The position numbers were made by a program, and so were the translations under genes. DNA of 64,000 nt, from NCBI RefSeq assembly GCF_030848575.1, contig NZ_JAVDDX010000002.1:930001-994000 (forward strand). The letters are read 5' to 3'. Source of the stretch: Haloarcula sp. H-GB4 (lineage in GTDB: Archaea > Halobacteriota > Halobacteria > Halobacteriales > Haloarculaceae). Under the pieces are notes generated by a model. The model was not told where the DNA came from and made no database searches. It saw only the letters and a program-made list of their open reading frames with translations. This document shows positions 6,514 through 19,722 of this stretch, in pieces (the first letter of the stretch is position 1; every line of letters begins with the position of its first letter).

Positions 6514-8559
6514 ATGGCCGAAAACCACGAACTCACCGAAGACCTGATACAATTCTTCCGGGACTACTACCCGGAAGAGATCGCACAGCTCGCACAACGC
6601 TACCCCCGAGAACAGAAGTCACTCCACGTCGACTACGATGACCTGTACCGGTTTGATCCGGGTATTGCCGATGACGTGCGGAACCATCCGAAGGAGATGC
6701 AGGAACACCTAGAGGAAGCGTTCCGTCTCTACGACTTGCCGGTAGCAGTCGAGCTCAACGACGCCCACGTACGAATCTACAATCTCCCGGAGATGCACGT
6801 CTTCGACCCTTCGGGTGTATCTCGTCATGAGAACATCGGCCAACTGCTCGACATCCGCGGACAGGTCCAGAAGGTGTCCGACGTGAAGCCCCGCCTCACA
6901 GAAGCCGTCTGGGAATGCCAGCGGTGTGGGACCCAGACTGAGATTCCACAGCACGGGGATAGTCTGCAGGAACCGCACGAGTGTCAGGGATGCGAACGGC
7001 AGGGCCCCTTCTCGCTCGACGCCAGCGCCAGTAGCTGGATCGATCACCAGTACGCCCGTGTCCAGCAACCGCCCGAGAAAACGAACGGTGGAGAAGCACA
7101 GAGCGTCGACGCGCACCTCGAAGACGACCTGATTGAAGGCTTCGACGCGGGTGATAGGGTGGTTCTGACCGGGATTCTGGATATAGAAGAGCCCGGTGCC
7201 GATCAAGAGCTCGACTTCGACACGAACCTCGACGCGCGTTCAGTCGTGAAAGAGGAAAGCGACTACGACGATGTCGACGTAGAGGAGCACCTCGACGAAA
7301 TCGAAGCCGTCGCCAACGGGGAACGCGGCGACCCGTACCAGCTACTCATCGATTCGATCAACCCGAAGCACAGGGGTGATGAACAGGTCAAGCTGGCCGT
7401 CGCCCTGCAGCTCTTCGGCGGCTGGGCTCACGAGTACCCGGACGGGAGCCGCGACCGCGGGGACTGGCATATGCTTCTCCTCGGTGACCCGGGCTGTGGG
7501 AAGTCGACGTTCCTCCGCTACGTCGACCAGATTGCCCCGCGGTCGACGTATGCATCGGGGAAAGGCGCGACGGCAGCGGGCATGACCGCGGCGGCAGTCG
7601 CTGATGACTTCGGAGATACTGAGTGGGGACTGGAAGCCGGTGCGCTGGTACTGGCCGATGGCGGTATCGCCTGCGTCGACGAGATTGATAAGATGCAGTC
7701 CGACGCGGTGTCCTCGATGCATGACGCCCTGGAGAGCCAGCGGGTCCACGTCAACAAGGCCGGTATCAACGCAACACTGAACGCCCGGACTTCGCTGCTG
7801 GCGGCAGGGAATCCGAAAGACGGTCGCTTCGACCGCTACCGCCCGAAGGGTGAACAGATCGATATGAGCCCGACGCTGCTCTCCCGGTTCGACCTGATGT
7901 TCATGGTATCCGACCAACCCGATCGGGAGGACGATGCGGATGTCGTTGAGCACATGGTCCAGAGTCGGCAGGCTGCAGGCCGTCACACCCGGGGTGAGGA
8001 ACTGAGTGACGAGGAACAGCAGCGGGTCGAGCCCGCGATAGACCGGTCGATGATGCGGGCCTACGTTGCTCACGCGAAGCAGACCTGTCGACCCATCATC
8101 GAGGATGACGAAGTTGCGGAGCGATTGAAACAGTTCTTCGTCGAGTTCCGAGCTGGGGCTGGTGAGCAAGACGATGACTCACCGATTCCCGTCACATTCC
8201 GGAAGGTCGAAGCGATACAGCGGCTTGCCGAGTCCAGTGCACGGGTTCGTCTTTCGGATACTGTGGAGATTGAAGACGTAGAGCGGGCGATTAAATTAGT
8301 GACAAGATCGATGAAGCAGGTAGGGTACGATCCAGAAAGTGACGAGTTCGATGCTGATATTATTGAAACAGGACAATCGAAGAATCAGCGGAGTCGCCGT
8401 GAACGTATCTTAGCGAGGATTACTGAATCAGATGGGGTTTCCATCGAATCTCTGAACGACGAAGTAGACTTCGACCAAGAGAGACTAAAGCGTGACATTG
8501 AAAACTTGAAAACAGAAGGACGGATCTACAGTATGAATGGGGAGTACAGAAAAACTTAG
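6514..8559 (+). CDS. mcm: MCM-type replicative helicase of the element
   Basis: A 681-residue minichromosome maintenance homologue: DNA-dependent ATPase and 3'-5' helicase, acting as a hexamer. The N-terminal domain carries a zinc motif with CxxC pairs near residues 134 and 157. The AAA+ domain has Walker A 'GDPGCGKST' (~324), Walker B 'CVDEIDKM' (~388), sensor 'LAAGNPKDG' and the arginine-finger stretch 'LLSRFDL'. A winged helix closes the C-terminus. The frame extends to a GTG at 6490, but the ATG at 6514 clears the palindromic operators. Integrated MCM copies are common in archaeal plasmids and viruses and imply self-directed replication. The last ~80 codons turn AT-richer, matching the DNA that follows. 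Confidence 0.95.
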   Translation: MAENHELTEDLIQFFRDYYPEEIAQLAQRYPREQKSLHVDYDDLYRFDPGIADDVRNHPKEMQEHLEEAFRLYDLPVAVELNDAHVRIYNLPEMHVFDPSGVSRHENIGQLLDIRGQVQKVSDVKPRLTEAVWECQRCGTQTEIPQHGDSLQEPHECQGCERQGPFSLDASASSWIDHQYARVQQPPEKTNGGEAQSVDAHLEDDLIEGFDAGDRVVLTGILDIEEPGADQELDFDTNLDARSVVKEESDYDDVDVEEHLDEIEAVANGERGDPYQLLIDSINPKHRGDEQVKLAVALQLFGGWAHEYPDGSRDRGDWHMLLLGDPGCGKSTFLRYVDQIAPRSTYASGKGATAAGMTAAAVADDFGDTEWGLEAGALVLADGGIACVDEIDKMQSDAVSSMHDALESQRVHVNKAGINATLNARTSLLAAGNPKDGRFDRYRPKGEQIDMSPTLLSRFDLMFMVSDQPDREDDADVVEHMVQSRQAAGRHTRGEELSDEEQQRVEPAIDRSMMRAYVAHAKQTCRPIIEDDEVAERLKQFFVEFRAGAGEQDDDSPIPVTFRKVEAIQRLAESSARVRLSDTVEIEDVERAIKLVTRSMKQVGYDPESDEFDADIIETGQSKNQRSRRERILARITESDGVSIESLNDEVDFDQERLKRDIENLKTEGRIYSMNGEYRKT

Positions 8560-8731
8560 TAAGACTGCTGCTTAGGCGTCAGCATCGGTACTGCTGTCAC
8601 TGTCTGACCCCCAGAACCGAGTCCAAACAGACTTATCACGGTTACGTCGTGGACCCTTGTTGAATTTCATCTCAATCAAATATTGAGAGTCTGAATTCAA
8701 AAAGCTTGTCCTCAATCTGCTATACTTGATT

Positions 8732-9763
8732 TCAGTATATTCTATCGTCAATTATCAATAGCAAGGCGCCTACTAGTACAAATAGAGAAAAATCCACAGG
8801 ATGAACCAGTAGTAGTAGTTCAAATATTGAGTCAGGAAGTAGCATGGCCAAAATGGCTGGGTGTGAGGGGGACAAGCGAAGAGCACTTGGACTGAGTAAT
8901 AAGACCGCCGTAGCGAGGTTAAGAATGAATATCATGGAAAAGAACCAGACTTGTTTTGGATATCCGTAAATCACATTTGATACAGTGAACATTAAGAAGT
9001 AGAATGGAACTGCAACCCAGATGTATGTTATATGTGCTTCAATAAAACATACCCATGCGCCAGTTACTATGATTGTTGGTAATATCGAAATTCCGGTATA
9101 GAGTAAGTGGCGTCCTCCGGCTAATTCGGGGAAAGAGAGAACGTTTGAATATATAATTACAGCAGGGAGAGACACCAATAGTGGTAAGACTGCGATTACA
9201 TCACTGGTGCCATTATTAACCGTCCCCGTGATAAATACGCCAGCAGCAATATATGCTAATGCGTTGATTGTTATTATTGTCGTATAAGTTATAAATCTCC
9301 CGTTATCTTGCAGGACTGAGTCGTTGTGTGAAATATATTCCTTGTTTTTGTTTACAATCATAGACACGGAGTCGCGCTTTCTTTGCTTTTCATAATATGC
9401 CCGGTCGACTTCACGTGGATCAATTCCGCCCTGTAGGGCCGAGGCTCTGTAAGTTATAGCCCCGGCTGCTAAGGATCCAATCAGTAGAGTAACACCAATG
9501 ACGGAATTAATATTTATTAGTACATCTATATCTGGACTGGAGTTCCCGACTGCTACTGATGCCAAGCCAATAACTATACTTAAAAAAAGAATATTAGCTC
9601 GGTATATCCGGATAGCCTTATCATCTATGTCAGATAGAGTGTCAATCTGATAATCCAGTGTTCGGTTTGTTTGGTCAAGGATTGTTTCCAACGAATCTCT
9701 TGTTGGCGGTTGCTCATTGTTTTTGTTCTCGTCACACTTGTCAGAGCCACAATCGTCAGACAT
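8732..9763 (-). CDS. Multi-pass membrane protein in an AT-rich block, unknown function
   Basis: A 343-residue protein. The N-terminus is soluble and polar (1-~52, containing 'LDYQIDTLSDIDDKAIRIYR'), followed by two membrane segments (~53-72, 80-100), a charged stretch (~105-150), and about six more hydrophobic segments to the C-terminus. Codon use is clearly AT-rich compared with the core chromosome, a sign of recent transfer. It lies downstream of the DUF91/EVE nuclease gene on the same strand, 140 bases apart. Nuclease plus membrane protein is a layout seen in defence modules, but no family is recognised. Confidence 0.7.
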   Translation of the reverse strand: MSDDCGSDKCDENKNNEQPPTRDSLETILDQTNRTLDYQIDTLSDIDDKAIRIYRANILFLSIVIGLASVAVGNSSPDIDVLININSVIGVTLLIGSLAAGAITYRASALQGGIDPREVDRAYYEKQRKRDSVSMIVNKNKEYISHNDSVLQDNGRFITYTTIITINALAYIAAGVFITGTVNNGTSDVIAVLPLLVSLPAVIIYSNVLSFPELAGGRHLLYTGISILPTIIVTGAWVCFIEAHITYIWVAVPFYFLMFTVSNVIYGYPKQVWFFSMIFILNLATAVLLLSPSALRLSPSHPAILAMLLPDSIFELLLLVHPVDFSLFVLVGALLLIIDDRIY

Positions 9764-9903
9764 CCAGATATTGGTACCAATATCTATTGACCAAATAAAT
9801 CTACTCGTGGGAAGTTGCCATTTTGCATATATCTGATTGATAAATTTGGCGTCAAAGTCGTTAAAAAGGCTGTCAGAGTAGACCTAGCCAGAGAAAATGC
9901 TGG

Positions 9904-11034
9904 TTAAAGAGCAGAGACACCGAACTCATCATAGAGTCGATCTAGTGTCTGCTGGTCTTTCAATCGAGTTACGGTATTTTGGTTTGCATACATGCCCTTC
10001 TCCCAGATAGCGTCATTCATATCAACAGTTTCAATCCAATCAACCCCGATTAAATATTCTCGAAGGTCAGGGTCATCTTTATTCTGACTGAGGTCACCTT
10101 CAAGTTGTGCCTCTGTAATTGGCTTGTTACCATCCTCAATCATGAACTCATCAGCAGGCGTCTTTTCTTGGGTAACTGTTCCGACCCCGATGTATCCATC
10201 CCCAGGGTGGTAAACAAATATTCTGGAGCCCTCTGTCGCTTTGTCCATTGTCCGATGGTACCACTCTCCGCCTCCGCCTGTAATAAACCCGTATTCTCGG
10301 GCATCACTCCATTTTCGGTAAGAGTTCGCCCCAAAGTTACCATAGAAGTCATGGCCGTTCCATGATTCTTGCTCCTGTTCCGTCTCCTCATCTTCAATCT
10401 CATGTGGATCATTAAGCCAAGACCGAGCGATATACTCTCGACCATCTTCCTGATAATAATTGAAACGGACTGCATTGATTGGTACCTCAAATTCTTCAGA
10501 AAGGTACTCAATAATCCGTTGAGTGGATCCGTCAAGTTCCGATGCGACAATCGTTAAATAATGCTGATTGTTAATTTCGTCAGGACCCTTTGGTGTGTCG
10601 TCGTTACTCGGACGGAATTTAGCATCAAATCCTGCTTCAAACGAGTCGGTATTTTCTGCAGAGTCTTCATAATGTCGTTTAATATCTTCGTATCCAAGGT
10701 TACTAGCCCAAGACGCATAGTCCATTGTCTGAGCCGTAACTTCTCGCGGGGTTTGATCGCGTTTTAATTCGATTACGTGAAGATCCCCGTCGCTGTCTAT
10801 AGCAAGGATATCGAGACGCTTTCCATCTAGAGTGGTTATCTGCCGGTCGATTACCAGCAGTGGCTGACCGAGTACGTTTGGGTCTTGTAGAAGGAACTTT
10901 TCCAAACGGTCTTCCTTATCAAGACGATTCGAAGATACTCGTTCAAACTCATCATCGTCTCTAATACGCCATAGGCCTAAATCGATTGGCACAATCAATG
11001 TCCATGTAAAGTCAATGTATATCTTCTTCGCCAC
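9904..11034 (-). CDS. DUF91/NucS-like PD-(D/E)XK nuclease fused to an EVE/PUA-like domain
   Basis: A 376-residue, probably two-domain protein. Residues ~25-140 match the DUF91/NucS-type nuclease fold: Glu45, Asp75 in 'KRLDILAIDSDGDLHVIELK', Glu89 and Lys91, then 'TAQTMDYASWA', which carries the motif-IV Gln/Tyr. Residues ~215-376 look like an EVE/PUA-type domain ('GEWYHRTMDKATEGSRIFVYHPGD' region, then 'GYIGVGTVT'), a fold known to read modified bases. It probably binds and cuts particular DNA, possibly modified DNA; the target is not visible. AT-rich codons suggest transfer. It probably forms a unit with the membrane protein downstream. Confidence 0.75.
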   Translation of the reverse strand: MAKKIYIDFTWTLIVPIDLGLWRIRDDDEFERVSSNRLDKEDRLEKFLLQDPNVLGQPLLVIDRQITTLDGKRLDILAIDSDGDLHVIELKRDQTPREVTAQTMDYASWASNLGYEDIKRHYEDSAENTDSFEAGFDAKFRPSNDDTPKGPDEINNQHYLTIVASELDGSTQRIIEYLSEEFEVPINAVRFNYYQEDGREYIARSWLNDPHEIEDEETEQEQESWNGHDFYGNFGANSYRKWSDAREYGFITGGGGEWYHRTMDKATEGSRIFVYHPGDGYIGVGTVTQEKTPADEFMIEDGNKPITEAQLEGDLSQNKDDPDLREYLIGVDWIETVDMNDAIWEKGMYANQNTVTRLKDQQTLDRLYDEFGVSAL

Positions 11035-11192
11035 ATGAGTGGATTCTGACTAACAGACAGTCAAAATACATTTTATTAACAAGTCAAAGTTGTTGAAGAA
11101 CTACGACACGGAACCCGCGATATCGAGCCATAGCCGACGACTCCGGGTCAAACTGTGGTTTATGGTGTCGGACTTTTCATTGAGAAGTATCC

Positions 11193-11792
11193 ATGCGAAT
11201 CGAGCGAAATCAGAACCATCACTCGTACCGCTGCTGGCTGACGCCGGACGAGTACAAGACCCTCAAACAGAGCGCAGGTAGCTACCAGGACTCCCTCATC
11301 ATCCAGCTCGGCGGCGAAGTCGGGCTTCGGTCCTTCGAGATACCCCAGATTCATCCGGAGCACATCAAGCACGTCGACGGGCACGCTCGGCTCCGCGTTC
11401 CCCAAGGGAAGGACACTGAGGGGAGCGGCGGGAAGCCTCGCGACGCCTACCTCCCGGAGCAAGTCGAAAGCGAGCTGCTCCGCTACGCCAACGTCGAGGA
11501 CATCGACCGCGACGAGCCAATCATCGACCTGAGTGAGCGGTCGGTACAGCGGCGGATCAAAGCCACCGCCGAGCGGGTTGCAGAGGAGACCGGCGACGCC
11601 GACTGGCAGAAGCTTTCGAGTCACGATCTCCGACGGTACTACGCGCAGACGCTCCTAGTGCGTGAGCGGATGAACCCCAGAGTGGTGATGGAAGTCGGTG
11701 GGTGGTCGTCGTTCTCCGCGGTCGAACCGTACCTGAACGCTCCCACCGCGGAGGTAGTGAACCGGGAGTTCGATGACGTGGCGTTCAGTTGA
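11193..11792 (+). CDS. Short tyrosine recombinase (catalytic domain only)
   Basis: A 199-residue site-specific recombinase made of the catalytic domain alone. The expected active-site set is visible: Arg46 in 'GEVGLRSFEI', a Lys around 73-81, His144-x-x-Arg147 in 'SSHDLRRYYAQ', Trp171 in 'GGWSS' and Tyr180. It lacks the N-terminal core-binding domain of full integrases. It is the second recombinase in the element and may serve a nested element, dimer resolution or gene inversion. The convergent nuclease gene ends 25 bases away. Its own attachment site was not found. Confidence 0.85.
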   Translation: MRIERNQNHHSYRCWLTPDEYKTLKQSAGSYQDSLIIQLGGEVGLRSFEIPQIHPEHIKHVDGHARLRVPQGKDTEGSGGKPRDAYLPEQVESELLRYANVEDIDRDEPIIDLSERSVQRRIKATAERVAEETGDADWQKLSSHDLRRYYAQTLLVRERMNPRVVMEVGGWSSFSAVEPYLNAPTAEVVNREFDDVAFS

Positions 11793-11817
11793 TCGAGTTA
11801 GCTGCTACAGTTCCAGT

Positions 11818-12435
11818 TCACTCTGAGAGAAGCCAGGTGATGACGGCGCCGTGTTGGTGATGGGGGTGCTGTAGTCCGTCGAAAGTTTCGAGCGTGGCAA
11901 TCTCGATATCGATGTCGTACCAGTAGGAAACATCCTGCTCGAACTTCTCGGCTATCGTCTCCGCACGTAGTTGTTCGTACTCCTCATCCTCTTTCTCGTA
12001 GTAGAGACCGAGTAGTCCCGTGGGCTGGTCGAAGTCAGATCCGATTAACTTCTTCGCGTCGGTAAGCATAGACGACGAGCTACGTTCCGGGAAGGGGCTG
12101 AAGACGCTCTTGTACATATTCGGGTCGACGTTTCCATTATCCCGCCTGAAGCGGAGCAGCTTCGCTTCAACCGGGAGACAAACATCGCCACTCTGGACCA
12201 ACAGGTCACACCGCCGTTGACTGCCTGGATAGGACATCTCGGTCCGAATCTCCACGCCCGTATCGTCACTGTCGGCCAGCCCGTCGAGGATCATCTGGAT
12301 TTGGTTCTCCTCCTCAAAGGGACCGATACCGGCTTTCCACTCTTCATGACGTGCTTCGGCATCGACTCGCGGGATCACATCTGCAAAATCACGGGCAACT
12401 CGTTGGAGAACTACCGAGGGGGTCTGCATACACAT
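11818..12435 (-). CDS. PD-(D/E)XK nuclease-like protein
   Basis: A 205-residue protein whose centre has the restriction-nuclease pattern: acidic residues at 41-43, Asp77 in 'RRCDLLV', then Glu90-x-Lys92 in 'LPVEAKLLRF'. The C-terminal half is acidic with aromatic patches. No specificity domain is seen, so the target is unknown; anti-invader DNA cleavage is a reasonable inference. It converges with the short recombinase. The noncoding repeat region lies upstream. Confidence 0.7.
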   Translation of the reverse strand: MCMQTPSVVLQRVARDFADVIPRVDAEARHEEWKAGIGPFEEENQIQMILDGLADSDDTGVEIRTEMSYPGSQRRCDLLVQSGDVCLPVEAKLLRFRRDNGNVDPNMYKSVFSPFPERSSSSMLTDAKKLIGSDFDQPTGLLGLYYEKEDEEYEQLRAETIAEKFEQDVSYWYDIDIEIATLETFDGLQHPHHQHGAVITWLLSE

Positions 12436-13413
12436 CGATGGCGAGTGATAACGGATATGCTTTCCCCAGCAGATAAGGGGGCAAAGCAGGTGGAAAGGGG
12501 GTGCTCAGGAGTGCTGAGCGGTCGCTCTCCGGAACCCGGCTAAGCTGAGAAGCGAAAAGCAGCAGTAGAGGGGTCAGAAGCTGTACTCAAGCGGTAGAAA
12601 GAGCAGGCAGGAAGGGCCCTTTGAGGGGGTGGTAGCTGGTGGTCGTCTAATCACGACCCAGATTTAGGGTAGAGGGCACTCAAGCAGCGCTCAAGTACAG
12701 AAGCTAGCGGTGGTCGAGGACCTCTCAAGCAGTGGTCGTGCTGGTACGAGCTGGAAGAGCAAGGGGACGACCCACCACGAAGGGGCCCTTTAACCCCTTG
12801 CTTCCATGCACCGGCTGTCACGACCAGCGAGAAAGGGCGCTTCAGTTCCCTCAAGCAGAGAAAATCTTCGCTTGCGAGCAGCGGCGAGAAGCAGCAATTC
12901 TGCCTGCTTCCCAAGTACGGAGTCTGCGACCAGCGAAACGAGGGGTTAGAGGGGCCTGAAGCAGCACAAATCAGGCGGTAAGAGCAGGGGTGAAGGGGCC
13001 CTTCAGGGGTGGCCTTCGGTGGTCGAGTTGAATCGAGGGGGTAGAGACCAGCAGATACCACTAAGTTGATTACAATATACCTTGTCTAATTGCCACTTCA
13101 TTATGAGTCAGGCTATTCTCGGATCAACACCTTGCCGCAATTCGAATCTCTTCTCCGGCTACTATCTCAACGAACGAATTTTTCGCTAGGACACAGTCAT
13201 ACCCTTCAAATAAATATCTCCATGCTTGCCTTCAGATTAATTCCTTACTAAAAACCCGATATTTACCCCGTAATTATTTCTTGAAAGAAAATATGGTTAA
13301 ACCATGCACCAATCACTAGTACGCACAATAACCACTGACGGCGCCAGTTTAGCGAAATCGAAAAGCCTAGTACCCCTGCCGTCCTTGGATATAGTACATA
13401 GCACGGCCGCAGA
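12436..13413. other. 978-bp noncoding region with repeated palindromes and purine-rich motifs
   Basis: No convincing gene is present: ORFs here are not acidic and have poor codon use. From 12.48 to 13.06 kb the + strand is purine-rich. It carries three copies of a near-palindrome GAAGGG(G)CCCTT(T/C) at 12611, 12779 and 12992, recurring 'CTCAAGCAG' (12674, 12723, 12850) and recurring 'GTGGTCG'. From about 13.07 to 13.41 kb the DNA turns AT-rich and probably holds the promoter of the next operon ('atatagtacata' near 13390). Candidates are a noncoding RNA, a replication or partition site, or a decayed gene. Confidence 0.55.
12611..13004. repeat. Three dispersed copies of a GAAGGGGCCCTTC-like palindrome
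   Basis: Copies at 12611-12622, 12779-12791 and 12992-13004, each centred on GGGCCC. Spacing is about 168 and 213 bases. Confidence 0.5.
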
Positions 13414-13422
13414 GTGACACAT

Positions 13423-14133
13423 ATGGGATTTGATACAGAAGCCGACATGCGCGAAGTAGCCCAGGGGGCTCTTCGGAATGCATTCAACGAACCCGAAGCA
13501 AAACTATTCGAAGAATTCTCGTACGGATCGGGACGCGCAGACTATGTCCTTGCCCGTGTGTCTGAAGCGTACCTCTCACGCAGACTCGATGACTTAAATA
13601 TTAAAACCGCGATTGACAACGATCGCATTCTACAAGCGTTTCTCCTCCTTCACAACCGCGAAACCATCTCAAAAGACTACTACTACGAGATGGGTGCTCT
13701 AGACCAGTCATCAAAGAAAGAGGCACTCAACTGGCTTACCGAACATGGCTTCGCCAAAGAAATCGGGGAGTCATACATACGTTCAACCCCAAACCTTCGA
13801 CGTCACGTCACCACTGCATACTCAATCGAATTGAAACTTAGTAAATGGAAAGAAGCGCTCAGACAAGCGTTCCGTGGCAAGGGATTCTCCGAATACCAAT
13901 GCGTAGTCATGGACGCCGAATACGTTGATCGAGCACTCAACAACAAACACCGGTTCGAAGAGCATGGTATCGGTCTTATGTCACTGACCGAAGACGGGCA
14001 CTATGAAATCCATTTGAAGCCGGAACGTAGCAACCCCTATTCGTTGATAAACAAGTGGCGGCTTAATGAAAGAATTATAGTGGAGGCGTCAAAATCTAAC
14101 ACTCATCAATATGTTGGAGCAGCTGGGGATTGA
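13423..14133 (+). CDS. PD-(D/E)XK-like protein with internal winged helix, gene 1 of the kinase operon
   Basis: A 236-residue protein. Residues 28-45 give 'FEEFSYGSGRADYVLA' with Asp40. A helical, probably winged-helix insert follows (~60-130). Then come 'YSIELKLSKWKEALRQA' with Glu136 and Lys138, and a strand 'QCVVMDAEYV'. The split Asp...Glu-x-Lys pattern is that of PD-(D/E)XK nuclease-fold proteins, so DNA binding or cleavage is inferred. A GTG at 13414 is an alternative start. Its end overlaps the kinase start by 23 bases, so the two are translationally coupled. Codon use is less GC-biased than in core genes. Confidence 0.65.
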   Translation: MGFDTEADMREVAQGALRNAFNEPEAKLFEEFSYGSGRADYVLARVSEAYLSRRLDDLNIKTAIDNDRILQAFLLLHNRETISKDYYYEMGALDQSSKKEALNWLTEHGFAKEIGESYIRSTPNLRRHVTTAYSIELKLSKWKEALRQAFRGKGFSEYQCVVMDAEYVDRALNNKHRFEEHGIGLMSLTEDGHYEIHLKPERSNPYSLINKWRLNERIIVEASKSNTHQYVGAAGD

Positions 14134-14971
14134 TGATATTCAAAATCATTTCCCTGAATTCAAGATAGAGAACCACATCGCGGACGGTGGCCAAAAGAAA
14201 GTTTATCTTGGAGAATACGACGGAGAACAAGTTGTTATCAAGCTGATTCCAACCGAACGCCGAAGATCAGCTCGACGCGCAAAACGCGAAGTTGAGACCA
14301 TGGAAACCGTCGCTGCTGACGCACTCGTGAATCTCATCGACTACTTTACAGACGCCATCAACGACACCTCTGTGCTCGTTATGGTCGAAGAGTACATCCC
14401 TGGGCCAACACTCCACGAAGTCATTGATAACGGAAATGTAAGCGCTGAACTCGGCATCAATGTCGCTCAGACCCTACTAGAAGCCTTGCAGAAGTTTGAT
14501 GAAGTCGATATTGTTCATCGGGATATTAAACCATCAAATATCATCATTGCCCCAGATGACCGAGTTCGGTTACTCGACGTTGGTATCGCTCGAATGCTCA
14601 CACGCACCAGTATCACTCCAACACGTGCCTCCCATGGCCCGGGAACACCCACCTATGCATCTCCGGAGCAACTCAACAACAACAAAGATCTCCAAGATAT
14701 CCGCAGTGACTTGTTCTCCTCAGGAATTGTGATGTTCGAATCACTTACTGGAGCGCATCCGTTCGCGTCCGACGATCTCGGACTTCCAATCCCCGATGCT
14801 ATCCTTCAAAACGACAAGAGACCATTAGAGGGTTACTTAGACGACCAGAGCTTAGAACAAAAACTATACCCCATCTACGACAAGATGACGAAACCACAAC
14901 CCTTCCAACGATACCGACAGCCGCAGCATGCACTTGAGGAACTAAACGATGCAATTGAGGGTGAAATCTGA
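14111..14971 (+). CDS. Serine/threonine protein kinase, gene 2 of the operon
   Basis: A 286-residue Hanks-type kinase domain with no receptor part. Visible motifs: a modified glycine loop 'DGGQKKVYLG', catalytic-pocket Lys ~43 in 'VVIKLI', the catalytic loop 'HRDIKPSN' (~135-142), metal-binding 'DVG' in place of DFG (~156), and an activation segment ending 'GTPTYASPEQL' with 'SDLFSSGIVMFE'. All residues needed for activity appear present. It overlaps the gene before it by 23 bases and the gene after it by one base (TGATG). It probably phosphorylates a partner in the same cassette, with the phosphoesterase three genes on as a possible counterpart. Kinases of this type are known in several antiviral systems. 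Confidence 0.93.
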   Translation: MLEQLGIDDIQNHFPEFKIENHIADGGQKKVYLGEYDGEQVVIKLIPTERRRSARRAKREVETMETVAADALVNLIDYFTDAINDTSVLVMVEEYIPGPTLHEVIDNGNVSAELGINVAQTLLEALQKFDEVDIVHRDIKPSNIIIAPDDRVRLLDVGIARMLTRTSITPTRASHGPGTPTYASPEQLNNNKDLQDIRSDLFSSGIVMFESLTGAHPFASDDLGLPIPDAILQNDKRPLEGYLDDQSLEQKLYPIYDKMTKPQPFQRYRQPQHALEELNDAIEGEI

Positions 14972-16173
14972 TGTTTGACGAACCAAGCTTCTTCATTCAA
15001 ATGGGTTACAATGCCGGGAAACTCGGCCCGGAAATAATGGAGAAAGGCTTTGCAGACGGTGCCATTCTCAGTCCCGCAGACTTCGATAAAGACCGGAACG
15101 TAGAGCTATCCCGAGAATTCCACCGGGCTGGTGGTACCGTCTTGTTCGACCCACAGTTCTATATCCCGCGAGCAGACCGGCCCAGTCTCAGCTCATATGA
15201 TTACTTCGGTGATCACGGAGGGCACGACTTCGATACTGCTGAAGTTGGTGGAAACCTGAACGAAGTCTGTACACAAATCCTGGCTGTTCAGGATGATTTA
15301 GATGTTGACGCATACGTGTCACCAGCAAGAACTCTCGACACGTTCTCCTCTACGAAGGTTGACGAGTGGCTTGATTATACTGAAGCTTTCATCGAGGTCG
15401 TTGACGATCAGGGACGAGATATTCCAGTTCTGGCATCTCTGCCTCTCGAAGGAGTGCCTCTCAACGATAAGGATCAACGAGACACCCTCCTTAACCGAAT
15501 TACTGGACTTGACCCTGACGGGTTCTATGTGTCCGTTGAGTTCGACAAAGCAGACCGATATCCACTGACTGGTGTGTCGAATATTTATTCGTATCTCGAA
15601 CTTCTGAACACTCTACGAAAGAACCAGTACGATATCATTGTCGGGCACACCCACCACGTTGCGCATCTATTCATGGGTATCGGCATCAATGCTTTCGCAT
15701 CCGGTCATTACAACAACCTTCGTGCGTTTGATCAACGTCGATGGAAGCCAGACGACGGCCAAGGAGGTGGACGACTCGTCACAAAATATTATTCAGACAA
15801 ACTATTGAACGAGTTGCGTCTTGACCCAGATCTGGATCTCATGTATCAAAAAGGCGGGTTTGACATGGATCGAATCCGAATGAATTCGCCCTACGACGCA
15901 CCCCTGTTCAACAGTACCGATCCACCATCGACGGTCGGGTGGAACTTCCGCGAAGGTGCTTGGGATCACTATATTTGGGCCTGTTACCAGATTTCCCGCC
16001 AGTACCGTGGGAAGTCCTTGCCTGAGCGATTTGAAACTACAATGACAAAAATAGAAGATGCTGAAGACCTATTTGCAGATGTACAAGCAGAATTTGGGAT
16101 GATGAATGAGCCAGAAGGCAGTGTCTTCGATGATTGGAAAGCAGCGCTATCCACCATGAAATCAGATTTATAG
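14971..16173 (+). CDS. 400-residue protein of unknown function, possible TIM barrel, gene 3 of the operon
   Basis: I do not recognise a family. The sequence alternates hydrophobic strands and helices: 'DGAILSP', 'GTVLFDPQFYIPR', 'DAYVSPAR', 'IPVLASLPLE', 'DGFYVSVEF', 'DIIVGHTHH' and 'GINAFASGHYNNLRAF'. This is the rhythm of a TIM-like barrel, loosely like tRNA-guanine transglycosylase-type folds, though their signature motifs are absent. Conserved-looking polar spots are Asp-Pro-Gln (~63) and Gly-His-Thr-His-His (~225). The start is fixed by a TGATG overlap with the kinase stop, and the phosphoesterase begins 2 bases after its stop. An enzyme or sensor for a nucleotide or RNA substrate is possible but unproven. 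Confidence 0.7.
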   Translation: MFDEPSFFIQMGYNAGKLGPEIMEKGFADGAILSPADFDKDRNVELSREFHRAGGTVLFDPQFYIPRADRPSLSSYDYFGDHGGHDFDTAEVGGNLNEVCTQILAVQDDLDVDAYVSPARTLDTFSSTKVDEWLDYTEAFIEVVDDQGRDIPVLASLPLEGVPLNDKDQRDTLLNRITGLDPDGFYVSVEFDKADRYPLTGVSNIYSYLELLNTLRKNQYDIIVGHTHHVAHLFMGIGINAFASGHYNNLRAFDQRRWKPDDGQGGGRLVTKYYSDKLLNELRLDPDLDLMYQKGGFDMDRIRMNSPYDAPLFNSTDPPSTVGWNFREGAWDHYIWACYQISRQYRGKSLPERFETTMTKIEDAEDLFADVQAEFGMMNEPEGSVFDDWKAALSTMKSDL

Positions 16174-16175
16174 AA

Positions 16176-16862
16176 ATGGAAATTGGCGTAGTCTCGGATC
16201 TCCACTCAAATATGGTTGCACTTGATGCAGTCCTCCGAGACCTCGAAACAGAAAACATCGAGAATATACTCTGTGCAGGCGATCTGGTAGGGTATTACCC
16301 GTTCCCGAATGAAACCGTCTCACGCGTTCGAGATTTGAATGCACTGTGTGTGCTCGGCAATCACGACTTTGCCCTTGTCACCGAGACACCGAGAGATTTC
16401 AACCGGCTAGCGAAACGAGCACTGGACTGGAACCGCCGGAACCTCTCCGAAGAGAACCTCGTCTACTTAGAGGAACTACCAGAGACACGTCGATTGACAC
16501 TGGACGGTCTGGATATTTTCCTTGCACATGGCTCACCAGCCCGACCAATAAACGAATATATTTGGGAGGAAGACATTGACGAGCACTTCCTTGATGTGTT
16601 CTTTGAGTCACCGCCAGATGTCGTGATTCTCGGTCATACCCATCGTCCCTATGTAAAAGTAGTGGGGGACACATTGTGCATGAATCCGGGTAGTGTTGGG
16701 CAGCCGCGTGATGGTGATCCACGCGCATCATTTGGCGTTATAGACACTGAGTCGCTTGAGGCGGAGATTCGTCGCGTTGAATATGAGATTGACTGGGTTG
16801 CGGAAGAGACAGAGGAATATTTACCGAGACGGCTCGCGGAACGTCTCTATGAAGGCCGCTAA
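16176..16862 (+). CDS. Calcineurin-like metallophosphoesterase (YfcE/MJ0936 type), gene 4 of the operon
   Basis: A 228-residue single-domain phosphoesterase with the full metal-binding set: 'DLHSN' at residues 8-12, 'GDLVGY', 'GNHDF', 'AHGSP' and 'GHTHRP', plus the family's 'NPGSVGQPRDGDPRASF' stretch. It should hydrolyse phosphodiesters or phosphomonoesters; small members of this group act on cyclic nucleotides or nucleic-acid ends. It starts at an ATG 2 bases after the preceding stop, so it is the last gene of a four-gene operon. It may reverse or terminate a signal generated by the kinase or by gene 3. Confidence 0.93.
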   Translation: MEIGVVSDLHSNMVALDAVLRDLETENIENILCAGDLVGYYPFPNETVSRVRDLNALCVLGNHDFALVTETPRDFNRLAKRALDWNRRNLSEENLVYLEELPETRRLTLDGLDIFLAHGSPARPINEYIWEEDIDEHFLDVFFESPPDVVILGHTHRPYVKVVGDTLCMNPGSVGQPRDGDPRASFGVIDTESLEAEIRRVEYEIDWVAEETEEYLPRRLAERLYEGR

Positions 16863-16919
16863 TCCTGGGCAACTAACTCAGCAGTGAAAGAGAACCAGAG
16901 TGGACACAAGCATGGCCGT

Positions 16920-17120
16920 TCAACTCTTTTCCTCTACGACCTCAAGAAGTTCGTCAAGCAGCTCGGGGTGGTGTTCGTGAAGAATAGCGAGATCTTCGGA
17001 CAGTTCCTCGTCGATCTTCCGCCGGATACGGGAGACTGCCTGGTAGTAACGGTCGGACTTCTCCTCGGCTTCGAGGAGTTCCCGCTCGGTGTCTGTGAGT
17101 AGTGCGCGGCGGCGTCCCAT
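16920..17120 (-). CDS. 66-residue helical acidic protein, element-borne
   Basis: A small charged protein rich in Glu and Arg, helical throughout ('LLTDTERELLEAEEKSDRYY', then 'AVSRIRRKIDEEL'), ending in 'LLDELLEVVEEKS'. A TATA-like stretch at 17146-17153 (minus strand TATAATGA) lies about 30 bases before the ATG at 17120, supporting this start over the in-frame ATG at 17144. It may be a small regulator or coiled-coil adaptor. It is divergent from the Tat-signal gene. Confidence 0.7.
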   Translation of the reverse strand: MGRRRALLTDTERELLEAEEKSDRYYQAVSRIRRKIDEELSEDLAILHEHHPELLDELLEVVEEKS

Positions 17121-17324
17121 TTGCGAAGCCTGTTTGGGGGGCATCTCATTATACTGTGCCCTTCGTAGGCCCGTAAGGTTCCCATTTGCGGCAACTTCCC
17201 ACATATGGCAAAAGACTAAGTCCCATGTTGCCACAAGTGGGAATAAGAACACCGCGGCTACGCCATTTGGAAATGGCCGGTGCAAGGACACCGACCGCGG
17301 GTTCTCAACACAAGCCAAGAACCC

Positions 17325-17624
17325 ATGTCAACCGATGATACACGCAGAAATGAAAGCATCGCCTCGACGAACGACTCAAGCCGACGGCAGTTTCTCGGTG
17401 CTGCGGCCGCGGTCGCCGCGCTCCCGGTCGACCCACCAGCGGAGCCACAGCCCACTATCTCGGACGGTTTCGCCGCACACGTCGCCACCGAACACGTTGA
17501 ACCGGCCCTTCGGACTCTGACACGGACAGACTACGACCGCACAGAAGCTATCCCAAAGCTCGAAGACGCCCTTTCTCAACTCCGGAAAGAGACCGAGCAA
17601 CACCCCGATGGGAGGCGTAACTAA
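17325..17624 (+). CDS. Small protein with a Tat-like signal sequence
   Basis: A 99-residue protein. Residues 19-36 contain 'SRRQFLGAAAAVAALPV', a twin-arginine motif plus short hydrophobic stretch followed by prolines. That suggests Tat export or a membrane-tethered peptide. The remainder is polar and helical with no known domain. An upstream in-frame ATG at 17280 exists, but the ATG at 17325 places the twin arginines within a normal signal length. Why an integrated element should export a small protein is unclear; a surface-exclusion or toxin-like role is speculation. Confidence 0.6.
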   Translation: MSTDDTRRNESIASTNDSSRRQFLGAAAAVAALPVDPPAEPQPTISDGFAAHVATEHVEPALRTLTRTDYDRTEAIPKLEDALSQLRKETEQHPDGRRN

Positions 17625-18130
17625 CCCATTCACTCATTCATTCAATCAATTATTCACTCATTGACATATACTAAGTAGAGCCAGTTACTATGTGATACAC
17701 ATGCAGCACAAAAACACCCAAGAACAGAGATGAATTGCTTAGTAATTAACTAAGTAATTAACTTATTAACTAATCAACAGTTACTAAGTAGACTCACCGA
17801 ATATGGACTCAATACGCGGAATACAACCAACAAACAACTCACAGGATTCAGACAGATGACTCTCAAAAGTGGTAAAGTGCAAACGCATGGCCCTGACAAG
17901 CTCACCAGGCTTGGGCCATACGTTTTGAATCGATTGGACCGGGAAGATGTCTTCCCACTCTTAATTACTAGAGCTAGATACTTAGCACTTGGGGACGACA
18001 CGCTCCCGGTCCGGTGTCGCCGGCCTAACCGGCCTTCATCGGACGATGGAATTCAGACACGATGAGCTAACGTCGACCCAGCGAAGTATCGCATGCCACC
18101 CGAACAGTCGCCAGTCTGGGGGTGAGTGGG
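17625..18130. other. AT-rich intergenic region with short repeats and a hairpin
   Basis: 17631-17662 is a run of ATTCACTCATTCATT-like units. 17664-17790 is strongly AT-rich with three ACTAAGTA copies (17670, 17749, 17783) in TTAGTAATTAACTAAGT-type repeats. 17887-17919 can fold as ATGGCCC/GGGCCAT with an inner AAGC/GCTT stem. A 69-codon ORF at 17856-18065 and a 30-codon ORF at 18046-18138 are open, but neither has convincing codon use. The AT-rich repeats would suit a replication origin or regulator-binding region of the element. Confidence 0.5.
17664..17790. repeat. AT-rich repeat cluster with ACTAAGTA motifs
   Basis: Three identical 8-mers, two of them embedded in overlapping TTAGTAATTAAC direct and inverted repeats. 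The local GC content is far below that of the surroundings. Confidence 0.5.
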
Positions 18131-18474: not shown

Positions 18475-19722
18475 TCAGCTCTCGGTGGCGTCAGCGAACG
18501 CCCGTGCCTCGCGGAGGATTTCGGGGTTCTCATCACCGAGCTCAATGAACCGCTCGACACGGTCGAGGTTGTCGAGGAAGTCGGGATCGTCGTGAGCAAT
18601 CTGCAACAGCTCCGATCGAATCTCCTTCTGTTCTCGTTCGATCTCCTCAACCGCCGCCGCGTCCATCGCCTGACTGCACCAGACGCAGGTGGGTTCGTCG
18701 CGGGGCGTCTCGTTCCGGCATCGCGGGCAAGTGGCCGGCGCAATCGGGTCGGACTCGTCTTCCTCCACGTCGACTCCGTGGGCCTGCGCGATAGCGCGGT
18801 CGTTGGCGTCACCGAAGACGGCGACGTACCGGGAAGCCACGTCCGAACCCCGGTCCCAGCCGTGGTGGTCTTCGAGGTGGGCTTGATTGACACCGTCCGA
18901 AGCCAGATACGACGCCGACGACTTCCGCATCTGCGTGAACGTTACCTCGGTGTGGTCGATTCCGGCCTTCCGAGCGTGCTTCTTGAGAATCTTCAGCTTC
19001 ATCTGGTAGCTGATATCCTCGGGTTTACTCAGTTTCGACCAGAGGGGCGCATCCGGCTGGTCCTTTCCCGGGTGGACGTTCAGCCACTGTCGGAGATGAG
19101 GGACGGATGGGACGAGCGTAATCGACCGCTCGCCCTTCTTCCCGTCGACGGAGATACGCAGGCCGTATTTGTGGTCAGAAACGTCTCCGACGGTGAGGTT
19201 ACGGAGTTCCCCGCTCCGGGCCCCGGAGTCCCATGCGACGGCGATGAGCGCCTTGTCGCGGGCGTGGCGGCACTCGTCAAGCATGGGCAAGATGTGTTCC
19301 TCCCACCAGAGCATCTTCGCCGGGTTCGGCATCGGATTGTAGTCCTTCGACGTAGTTGCCGAGACCCACGAGATGCTATCGGGAATCTCGTCGCCGTCGG
19401 TGACGTGCTTCCCGAACATCCTGAAGGCAACCCGGTAGTCCCGGTTGGACTCCTCGTTGTCGTAGGTGTCGTGAATCCAGCGGACGATATCCTCGGCAGC
19501 TCGCTTGTCGTCAAGAGAGTCAGCCAGTCCGCCGACTTCCTCGGCGATACGCACACAGTGCCTGAGGAGCTTTTCACGGCGCTCCTTGCCGTACTGACTC
19601 CCGAGCAGGGCGAGTCTGTTGTCGAAGGCCTGCAACACGTTCTGGTCGTCTCCACTCATCTCTTCGGCGCGCTCGATGCGCTCCTGCAGATTCTCGATTC
19701 GACGATCTGCGTTTCTCGTCAT
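18475..19722 (-). CDS. Tyrosine integrase of the element, with C-terminal zinc ribbon
   Basis: A 415-residue recombinase. It has an N-terminal core-binding part (~1-150) and a catalytic domain with Arg169 ('DSGARSGEL'), 'FTQMRKSSA' (Arg266), 'HHGW' (286-289) and Tyr299 in 'SRYV'. The usual first His of the HxxR box is Thr here. A zinc-ribbon-like segment with two CxxC pairs (~334-352) and a helical tail follow. It points away from the right attachment site, 45 bases beyond its start, the standard place for an element's own integrase. It should recombine the two 15-bp tRNA-Phe repeats. Codon use is GC-rich like the chromosome. Confidence 0.93.
   Translation of the reverse strand: MTRNADRRIENLQERIERAEEMSGDDQNVLQAFDNRLALLGSQYGKERREKLLRHCVRIAEEVGGLADSLDDKRAAEDIVRWIHDTYDNEESNRDYRVAFRMFGKHVTDGDEIPDSISWVSATTSKDYNPMPNPAKMLWWEEHILPMLDECRHARDKALIAVAWDSGARSGELRNLTVGDVSDHKYGLRISVDGKKGERSITLVPSVPHLRQWLNVHPGKDQPDAPLWSKLSKPEDISYQMKLKILKKHARKAGIDHTEVTFTQMRKSSASYLASDGVNQAHLEDHHGWDRGSDVASRYVAVFGDANDRAIAQAHGVDVEEDESDPIAPATCPRCRNETPRDEPTCVWCSQAMDAAAVEEIEREQKEIRSELLQIAHDDPDFLDNLDRVERFIELGDENPEILREARAFADATES

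Follow-up and report, generated by a model that had tools for sequence, protein, structure and literature searches.

What does the third gene of a short operon in Haloarcula sp. H-GB4 encode, and what does its product do beside a protein kinase? The operon lies in NCBI RefSeq assembly GCF_030848575.1, contig NZ_JAVDDX010000002.1, positions 930,001 to 994,000 of the forward strand; this whole stretch of 64,000 nt is called the window, and its first nucleotide is position 1. On balance we favor the answer that the gene product, P0001, is a regulatory or sensor partner of the kinase with the fold of tRNA-guanine transglycosylase (TGT), gating a PD-(D/E)XK nuclease in a module directed against invaders.

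The open reading frame (ORF) of P0001 runs on the plus strand from an ATG at 14971 to a stop codon ending at 16173 and encodes 400 aa, exactly as placed by an earlier note made from the letters of this DNA. The opposite strand is crowded with stops there, and P0001 is, judging by homologues of like length and pattern, a genuine coding sequence. Homologues were found across archaea and bacteria, at 38–60% identity in haloarchaea and roughly 17–24% in other archaea and bacteria; across the family, barrels may be as little as 12–24% identical. The family is unnamed, and no library we used names it. Searched with P0001, Pfam gave no family at E ≤ 10 (PF01702, the TGT family, included), PADLOC, PHROGs and the PDB sequences gave no match, and NCBIfam gave one non-significant match (E 0.23), which agrees with the earlier note that no known family signature is visible. 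The PF01702 profile matched none of seven scanned barrel members and none of the proteins in a further scan, and a seven-member barrel profile found nothing meaningful among the PDB sequences.

From the rhythm of strands and helices the earlier note had guessed a barrel, and it had proposed fold comparison with TGTs; both ideas were borne out. The AlphaFold2 (AF2) model from a 7-row alignment (mean predicted local distance difference test, pLDDT, 74.8; predicted TM-score, pTM, 0.81) has eight strands alternating with helices (residues 6–10, 30–33, 56–59, 114–116, 153–160, 184–190, 221–225 and 241–243). VIA-align 2 was run on the 1000 PDB chains ranked best by Foldseek for this model, and all 50 rows listed were TGTs; the next-best family is hidden in those 50 because TGT entries in the PDB are very numerous. 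The best match was mouse QTRT1 (7b2i_C; Z 21.9, root-mean-square deviation 3.6, 316 residues aligned), and the Pyrococcus archaeosine TGT (1iq8_A) reached Z 21.0 with 309 aligned, so the likeness covers the barrel over most of its length; the alignments also take in the C-terminal helices. Plain Foldseek against viral models ranked a phage 'tRNA guanine transglycosylase' second (E 2.2e-4), among mixed barrels. We consider the predicted TGT-type fold of P0001 well supported, and common descent of the family with TGT likely. A candidate role as a supposedly missing archaeosine TGT of this genome was rejected, since the genome has two PF01702 matches elsewhere.

Residue counts for the barrel are from an alignment of 26 sequences; outside it stand a broken copy (L037, in G660) and two copies at contig ends (L015 and L016). 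The positions that matter are these.

14971–16173, plus strand: P0001, predicted TGT-fold barrel protein, 400 aa (AF2, VIA-align 2, family alignments).
15145–15171, plus strand: FDPQFYIPR signature, residues 59–67, with D60 at 15148–15150.
15697–15699, plus strand: codon of A243, the position matching the TGT nucleophile Asp (hhalign at a weak score, strand order).

Three residues never vary in the 26 barrels: D60, P118 and G184. Y186 and G245 are kept in 25, Q10 and G12 in 24, N249 in 23, H333 in 22 and R251 in 20. By the AF2 strand limits most of the conserved residues lie at or just past C-terminal strand ends, the ligand-binding side of a barrel. Two polar patches had been named in the earlier note. 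FDPQFYIPR proved to be a signature of the family (D60 26/26, P61 24/26, Q62 20/26), whereas GHTHH belongs to haloarchaea: H226 and H228 are each found in 8/26, all in haloarchaeal rows, and the patch was rejected as an active site for want of conservation elsewhere.

D60 follows strand 3 directly, as does the Asp of the TGT DSG motif, which we take to be Asp102 in Z. mobilis; the SG of that motif is not kept, and the two Asp residues were paired by strand order and by eye, hhalign not having paired them. The TGT nucleophile, at the end of strand 8, is presumably Asp280 in Z. mobilis. In a weak alignment hhalign pairs the corresponding Asp of archaeal TGT with A243, a column that holds A in 16 barrels, T in five, G in two, C in two and S in one, and never D. 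Thus the word enzyme in the 'new enzyme family' proposed earlier is doubtful. P0001 has no Cys cluster, hence no TGT-type zinc site; among the 26, a TGT-like CxCxxC..H past the barrel occurs only in two members fused to the kinase (L036 and L053, the latter from Priestia), and H333 may be a leftover zinc ligand. The picture from these alignments is of a putative TGT descendant that would keep its pocket without the covalent chemistry. Loss of the nucleophile speaks against base exchange, and retention of the pocket speaks for binding. That this protein determines the thing sensed or modified by the system, as suggested earlier, is plausible, and we lean to sensing.

The same note had called P0001 the only unrecognized member of the operon. 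That was not so: the product of the first gene likewise matches nothing significantly in Pfam, NCBIfam or PADLOC, and this gene is the real surprise of the operon. The neighbors of P0001 and their parts are as follows.

13423–14133, plus strand: predicted PD-(D/E)XK nuclease gene, 236 aa from ATG (invariant motifs, AF2, VIA-align 2).
13603–13809, plus strand: predicted winged-helix insertion of the nuclease between its D and ExK motifs, residues about 61–129 (like MarR/ArsR-type chains by VIA-align 2).
14111–14971, plus strand: Ser/Thr protein kinase, 286 aa (Pfam Pkinase, E 1.6e-34).
16176–16862, plus strand: calcineurin-like metallophosphoesterase of YfcE type (Metallophos_2, E 3.1e-30; TIGR00040 over cut-off).

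The mechanical ORF of the first gene begins at a GTG at 13414. Its product matches a single PHROGs family, of function not known. E6, G37, D40, E136, K138 and Q148 are invariant in 27/27 homologues, and the catalytic set E6, D40, E136, K138 and Q148 includes the D..ExK arrangement. The AF2 model (26 rows) has pLDDT 95.1, and VIA-align 2 puts the restriction enzyme PaqCI at the top (Z 12.0 over 123 residues), followed by EndoMS (10.4) and XisH (9.8). Plain Foldseek returned mostly winged-helix rows above E 0.01, and the fold call rests on VIA-align 2 and the motifs. By this evidence the gene is predicted to be an unannotated PD-(D/E)XK nuclease, which the earlier note did not recognize. The protein looks like a regulator, with a winged helix inside, yet bears the full catalytic set; five short homologues (L013, L014, L015, L019 and L020) lack the insertion.

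The kinase gene overlaps the nuclease stop upstream, and its own stop codon overlaps the ATG of P0001. The VAIK-type Lys, the HRD motif and the Asp of DxG (DFG-type) are retained in 27/27 aligned kinases, so that kinase and nuclease both have intact predicted catalytic residues. The metallophosphoesterase starts three bases past the P0001 stop and adjoins the barrel gene in 7/9 haloarchaeal loci (read by eye), an accessory of the haloarchaeal version.

A homologue of the nuclease, found by iterative search from the window nuclease alone, is present at 29 of the 30 barrel loci read out; the sole exception, L016, lies at the end of a contig. Among 24 tabulated loci without fusion the order is nuclease-kinase-barrel (14), kinase-barrel-nuclease (5) or kinase-barrel with a convergent nuclease (5). 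The kinase gene immediately precedes the barrel gene in all 24, commonly with overlaps of 1–8 bases (the gap value for L090 is unreliable), and two loci carry kinase-barrel fusions, L036 and a Priestia megaterium plasmid (L053). The invariant pairing and the fusions suggest that the barrel belongs to the kinase, and the freely varying position of the nuclease suggests a separate effector. Across 26 loci the three proteins have correlated pairwise distances (Mantel r 0.80, 0.87 and 0.75; 0/5000 permutations each), in values uncorrected for vertical descent, which contributes to them. L086 and L087 are one locus in two genomes, and a single copy was kept.

Several individual loci deserve a record. 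On the P. megaterium plasmid (L053:7984–10653) kinase and TGT-like barrel are one protein with CxCxxC..H, and the nuclease gene is convergent and overlapping. At L032, L035, L053, L085, L086 and L089 the end of a convergent nuclease gene overlaps the end of the barrel gene by about 23–39 bases, so that the tail-to-tail layout recurs; five of these six are among the tabulated loci. At L054:6011–6634 a 207-aa protein without Pfam match is encoded between barrel and nuclease. The broken module L037:4948–7434, in one bacterial genome, has kinase and barrel as two ORFs each. A Gordonia plasmid (L055:9040–10248) has a very divergent barrel relative with a phosphotransferase gene adjacent and a DNA methyltransferase upstream; it has no nuclease of the module's family, and we excluded it from the family counts.

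The barrel family is rare, with a patchy distribution over two domains of life: hosts of the module are haloarchaea, methanogens, Desulfobacterota, Elusimicrobia and, through one plasmid, Bacillota. With P0001 as query, a relative was found in 1/98 near relatives, namely the window's own genome (4.19 Mb), and in 7/392 genomes of the phylum. Profile searches gave 11/391 genomes of the class (two of them judged false), 5/149 in the phylum to which the Elusimicrobia locus belongs, 2/17 in a small bacterial phylum and, for the phylum of the Desulfobacteraceae locus, 7/297 (one judged false) and then 8/395 in overlapping samples. The false matches are still inside the raw tallies for the class and for the 297 genomes; they were dropped because the ORF was by eye like an M3-type peptidase (G812, L091) or a transposase (G535, L038), or because the same query span was matched as in G812 and the same presumed (G1005). 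One short pattern scanned over genome contigs gave five loci. Among plasmid records P0001 finds one, from Natribaculum (59% identity), and other queries found that record again, Priestia, a divergent Gordonia pair or none. No relative was found in phages with the P0001 or Priestia barrel as query, nor in viral contigs, where scans used short exact patterns and absence is weak evidence.

Recognized defense genes recur beside the module. By PADLOC, L033 is surrounded by BrxC, PglX, BrxHI and PglZ of bacteriophage exclusion (BREX), and L019 is followed by SspB and SspD. Type I restriction-modification (R-M) subunits for both methylation and restriction surround L035, a type I restriction subunit accompanies L089, and a type I methyltransferase lies downstream of L036; L035 and L089 count as one event because they are close relatives (64%). 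The same tool finds a type III methyltransferase adjacent to L054, and a type II methyltransferase and restriction enzyme adjacent to L018; L002 has a type IIG/DrmMI-like protein nearby. Pfam adds, at L032, an adjoining helicase-MTES_1575 protein (helicase with restriction endonuclease, REase), at L086 a C5 methylase in the vicinity, and at L088 an adjoining Mrr.

In the window the module lies in a low-GC island at about 8000–18000 (0.41–0.57, against about 0.62–0.66 in most of the flanks). Tyrosine-recombinase ORFs lie inside it at 11193–11792 and just outside at 18475–19722. A nuclease-like candidate-defense gene at 9904–11034 matches PADLOC PDC-S11 (E 2e-133). The only match of a 205-aa ORF on the minus strand at 11818–12435 is a weak one (E 0.003), to the end of a model for an antiphage NACHT protein, and the ORF product is possibly another nuclease-like protein.

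How might the parts work together? Kinase and barrel, always adjacent and at times one polypeptide, would form a single functional unit. The barrel, its TGT nucleophile lost, would use the pocket that surrounds the invariant D60 to read a nucleobase or nucleotide-like feature, be it a base that is free or flipped out or a nucleic acid. The unit would then control the separate nuclease effector by phosphorylation, and the haloarchaeal metallophosphoesterase may reverse this as an opposing phosphatase. The whole would be a small anti-invader device, possibly backup or abortive, often installed inside defense operons based on DNA modification. We favor a kinase-coupled sensor because of the pairing and fusions, the free position of the nuclease, the lost nucleophile with kept pocket, and defense neighbors like those that PMC12839542 relates for backup modules of BREX. 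The direction of the phosphorylation signal and its target are conjectural parts of this scheme, as are sensing and defense themselves.

Several observations weigh against this interpretation. The P0001 model is of moderate confidence overall, with residues 246–269 below pLDDT 50. Plain Foldseek against the PDB lists generic TIM barrels without a TGT among its top 50. The profile-profile check that the earlier note had proposed gave a weak hint: hhalign of the barrel profile against nine true TGTs yielded E 0.014 at a probability of 3% with the first half misaligned, its score of 22.8 barely exceeded the 22.5 reached by the best of 60 column shuffles, and global mode was useless. The defense neighbors at 11/26 loci are neither a rate nor an enrichment, because only promising-looking neighbors were tested, with no matched chance control; about half of the loci showed no recognized defense gene nearby in this selective scan. 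At the window locus itself no R-M or BREX gene was found among the scanned neighbors.

A bolder form of the sensor reading, which we advance tentatively and think rather doubtful as a whole, is that an immune kinase has gained its nucleobase-reading sensor by conversion of a TGT-type barrel, formerly an RNA-modifying enzyme. The kinase-barrel unit would monitor the state of a base or of its modification, or a phage product that upsets this state, phosphorylation would license the nuclease, and the three genes would serve as a guard within BREX, Ssp and R-M operons of archaea and bacteria alike.

The rival that survives best, unlikely in our judgment, has the barrel keep tRNA binding and aim the nuclease at tRNA anticodons, the module being a guard of the neighboring restriction system that stops translation like PrrC or PARIS. 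TGTs recognize the anticodon region of tRNA. The module's setting within operons for type I R-M and BREX also resembles that of PARIS, which cleaves tRNA upon sensing anti-restriction, as the part of PMC12839542 on it relates. The nuclease, though, resembles the DNA restriction enzymes PaqCI and EndoMS and usually has the MarR-like winged helix, and where barrel and true TGT from one genome were compared, the barrel was the more acidic in 5/5 pairs.

Also improbable is a regulatory module of plasmids and islands, akin to toxin-antitoxin pairs and with no direct antiviral action, in which the kinase neutralizes the nuclease and the barrel senses a metabolite. Plasmid copies, the low-GC island and presence in just one of the 98 relatives would suit it; repeated placement in BREX, Ssp and R-M operons exceeds the needs of plasmid upkeep.

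We give still less credence to an active base-exchange barrel that marks host DNA in the manner of DpdA, with a nuclease cutting unmarked DNA under control of the kinase. The TGT fold, the invariant D60 and a restriction-type nuclease as partner would fit, and PMC12839542 has DpdA-like TGTs as known members of Dpd and as proposed ones of BREX-related capture systems. The nucleophile position without Asp in all 26 barrels speaks against it, as does the restriction of the zinc-type CxCxxC to the two fused members. No gene for preQ0 synthesis, DpdB or DpdC was noticed by eye in the neighborhoods, where no model search was made, and several copies lie in operons that already carry a modification enzyme of their own.

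Least of all do we believe in an ordinary TIM-barrel metabolic enzyme whose TGT likeness is that of common barrels: the weak profile similarity and the top PDB rows of Foldseek (sugar epimerases, pyruvate kinase and dehydroquinase, at TM-scores of 0.3–0.4) would suit it, but the VIA-align 2 rows all being TGTs, C-terminal helices included, the strict linkage to kinase and nuclease, and the TGT-like CxCxxC..H of the two fused members make it very improbable, and neither a non-barrel fold nor a metabolic enzyme, the outcomes named beforehand as refutations, was found beyond those low-scoring rows.

How does the module compare with known proteins and systems? The barrel shares with QTRT1 and archaeosine TGT the fold at Z 21–22, perhaps the Asp directly after strand 3 and, in the two fused members, the CxCxxC..H; it differs in having no PF01702 match, no Asp nucleophile and a kinase and a nuclease as partners. 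QTRT2 and ArcS, which we take to be TGT-fold proteins with other or non-catalytic roles, without the classical active site and acting together with a partner, resemble it by that description; we know of no linkage of either to kinases or nucleases. The PADLOC kinase models PD-T4-6 and mad6 match the window kinase (E 8e-48 and 1.5e-43), but the kinase domain alone is common to them and our module, whose partner genes have no such match.

TGT homologues in defense (Dpd, BRC) and REase-kinase pairs (PglW, DndF) are already known, as far as the excerpts of the cited papers show. DpdA is a TGT homologue in a restriction-like gene set, the Dpd system, which in the excerpts of PMC12839542 also comprises DpdB and DpdC; these were not noticed here, and our barrel lacks the Asp nucleophile. 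BREX-Related Capture (BRC) combines a TGT and a GNAT protein with PglZ, DUF6079, STAND, DUF4007 and HerA (PMC12839542, in part). It too has a TGT homologue in a composite defense operon of archaea and bacteria, but a triad of kinase, TGT and REase is not part of its description in those excerpts. An REase joined to a Ser/Thr/Tyr kinase within a modification-linked defense system is described in parts of PMC12839542 and PMC10853773; those are single large proteins with a NERD-type REase and, in the parts concerned, no TGT-like barrel. PARIS and other backup modules share with ours the placement of a small effector module within a larger modification-based system (PMC12839542, in part), but PARIS is an OLD-ABC ATPase with TOPRIM, against kinase, barrel and PD-(D/E)XK nuclease here. 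Neither the models used nor the open-access PubMed Central literature searched showed a kinase-TGT-nuclease triad, which is not proof of absence.

If the sensor reading is true, one rare but widespread module unites eukaryote-like kinase signaling with a tRNA-modification fold put to new use and with a restriction nuclease, and it recurs in BREX, Ssp and type I R-M operons, whose backup effectors are now being cataloged. It would then also supply a concrete example of a sensor made from the fold of a base-modifying enzyme. Two unannotated protein families gain a fold, partners and residues to test, and versions ready for experiment exist in the haloarchaeal loci and on the Priestia plasmid.

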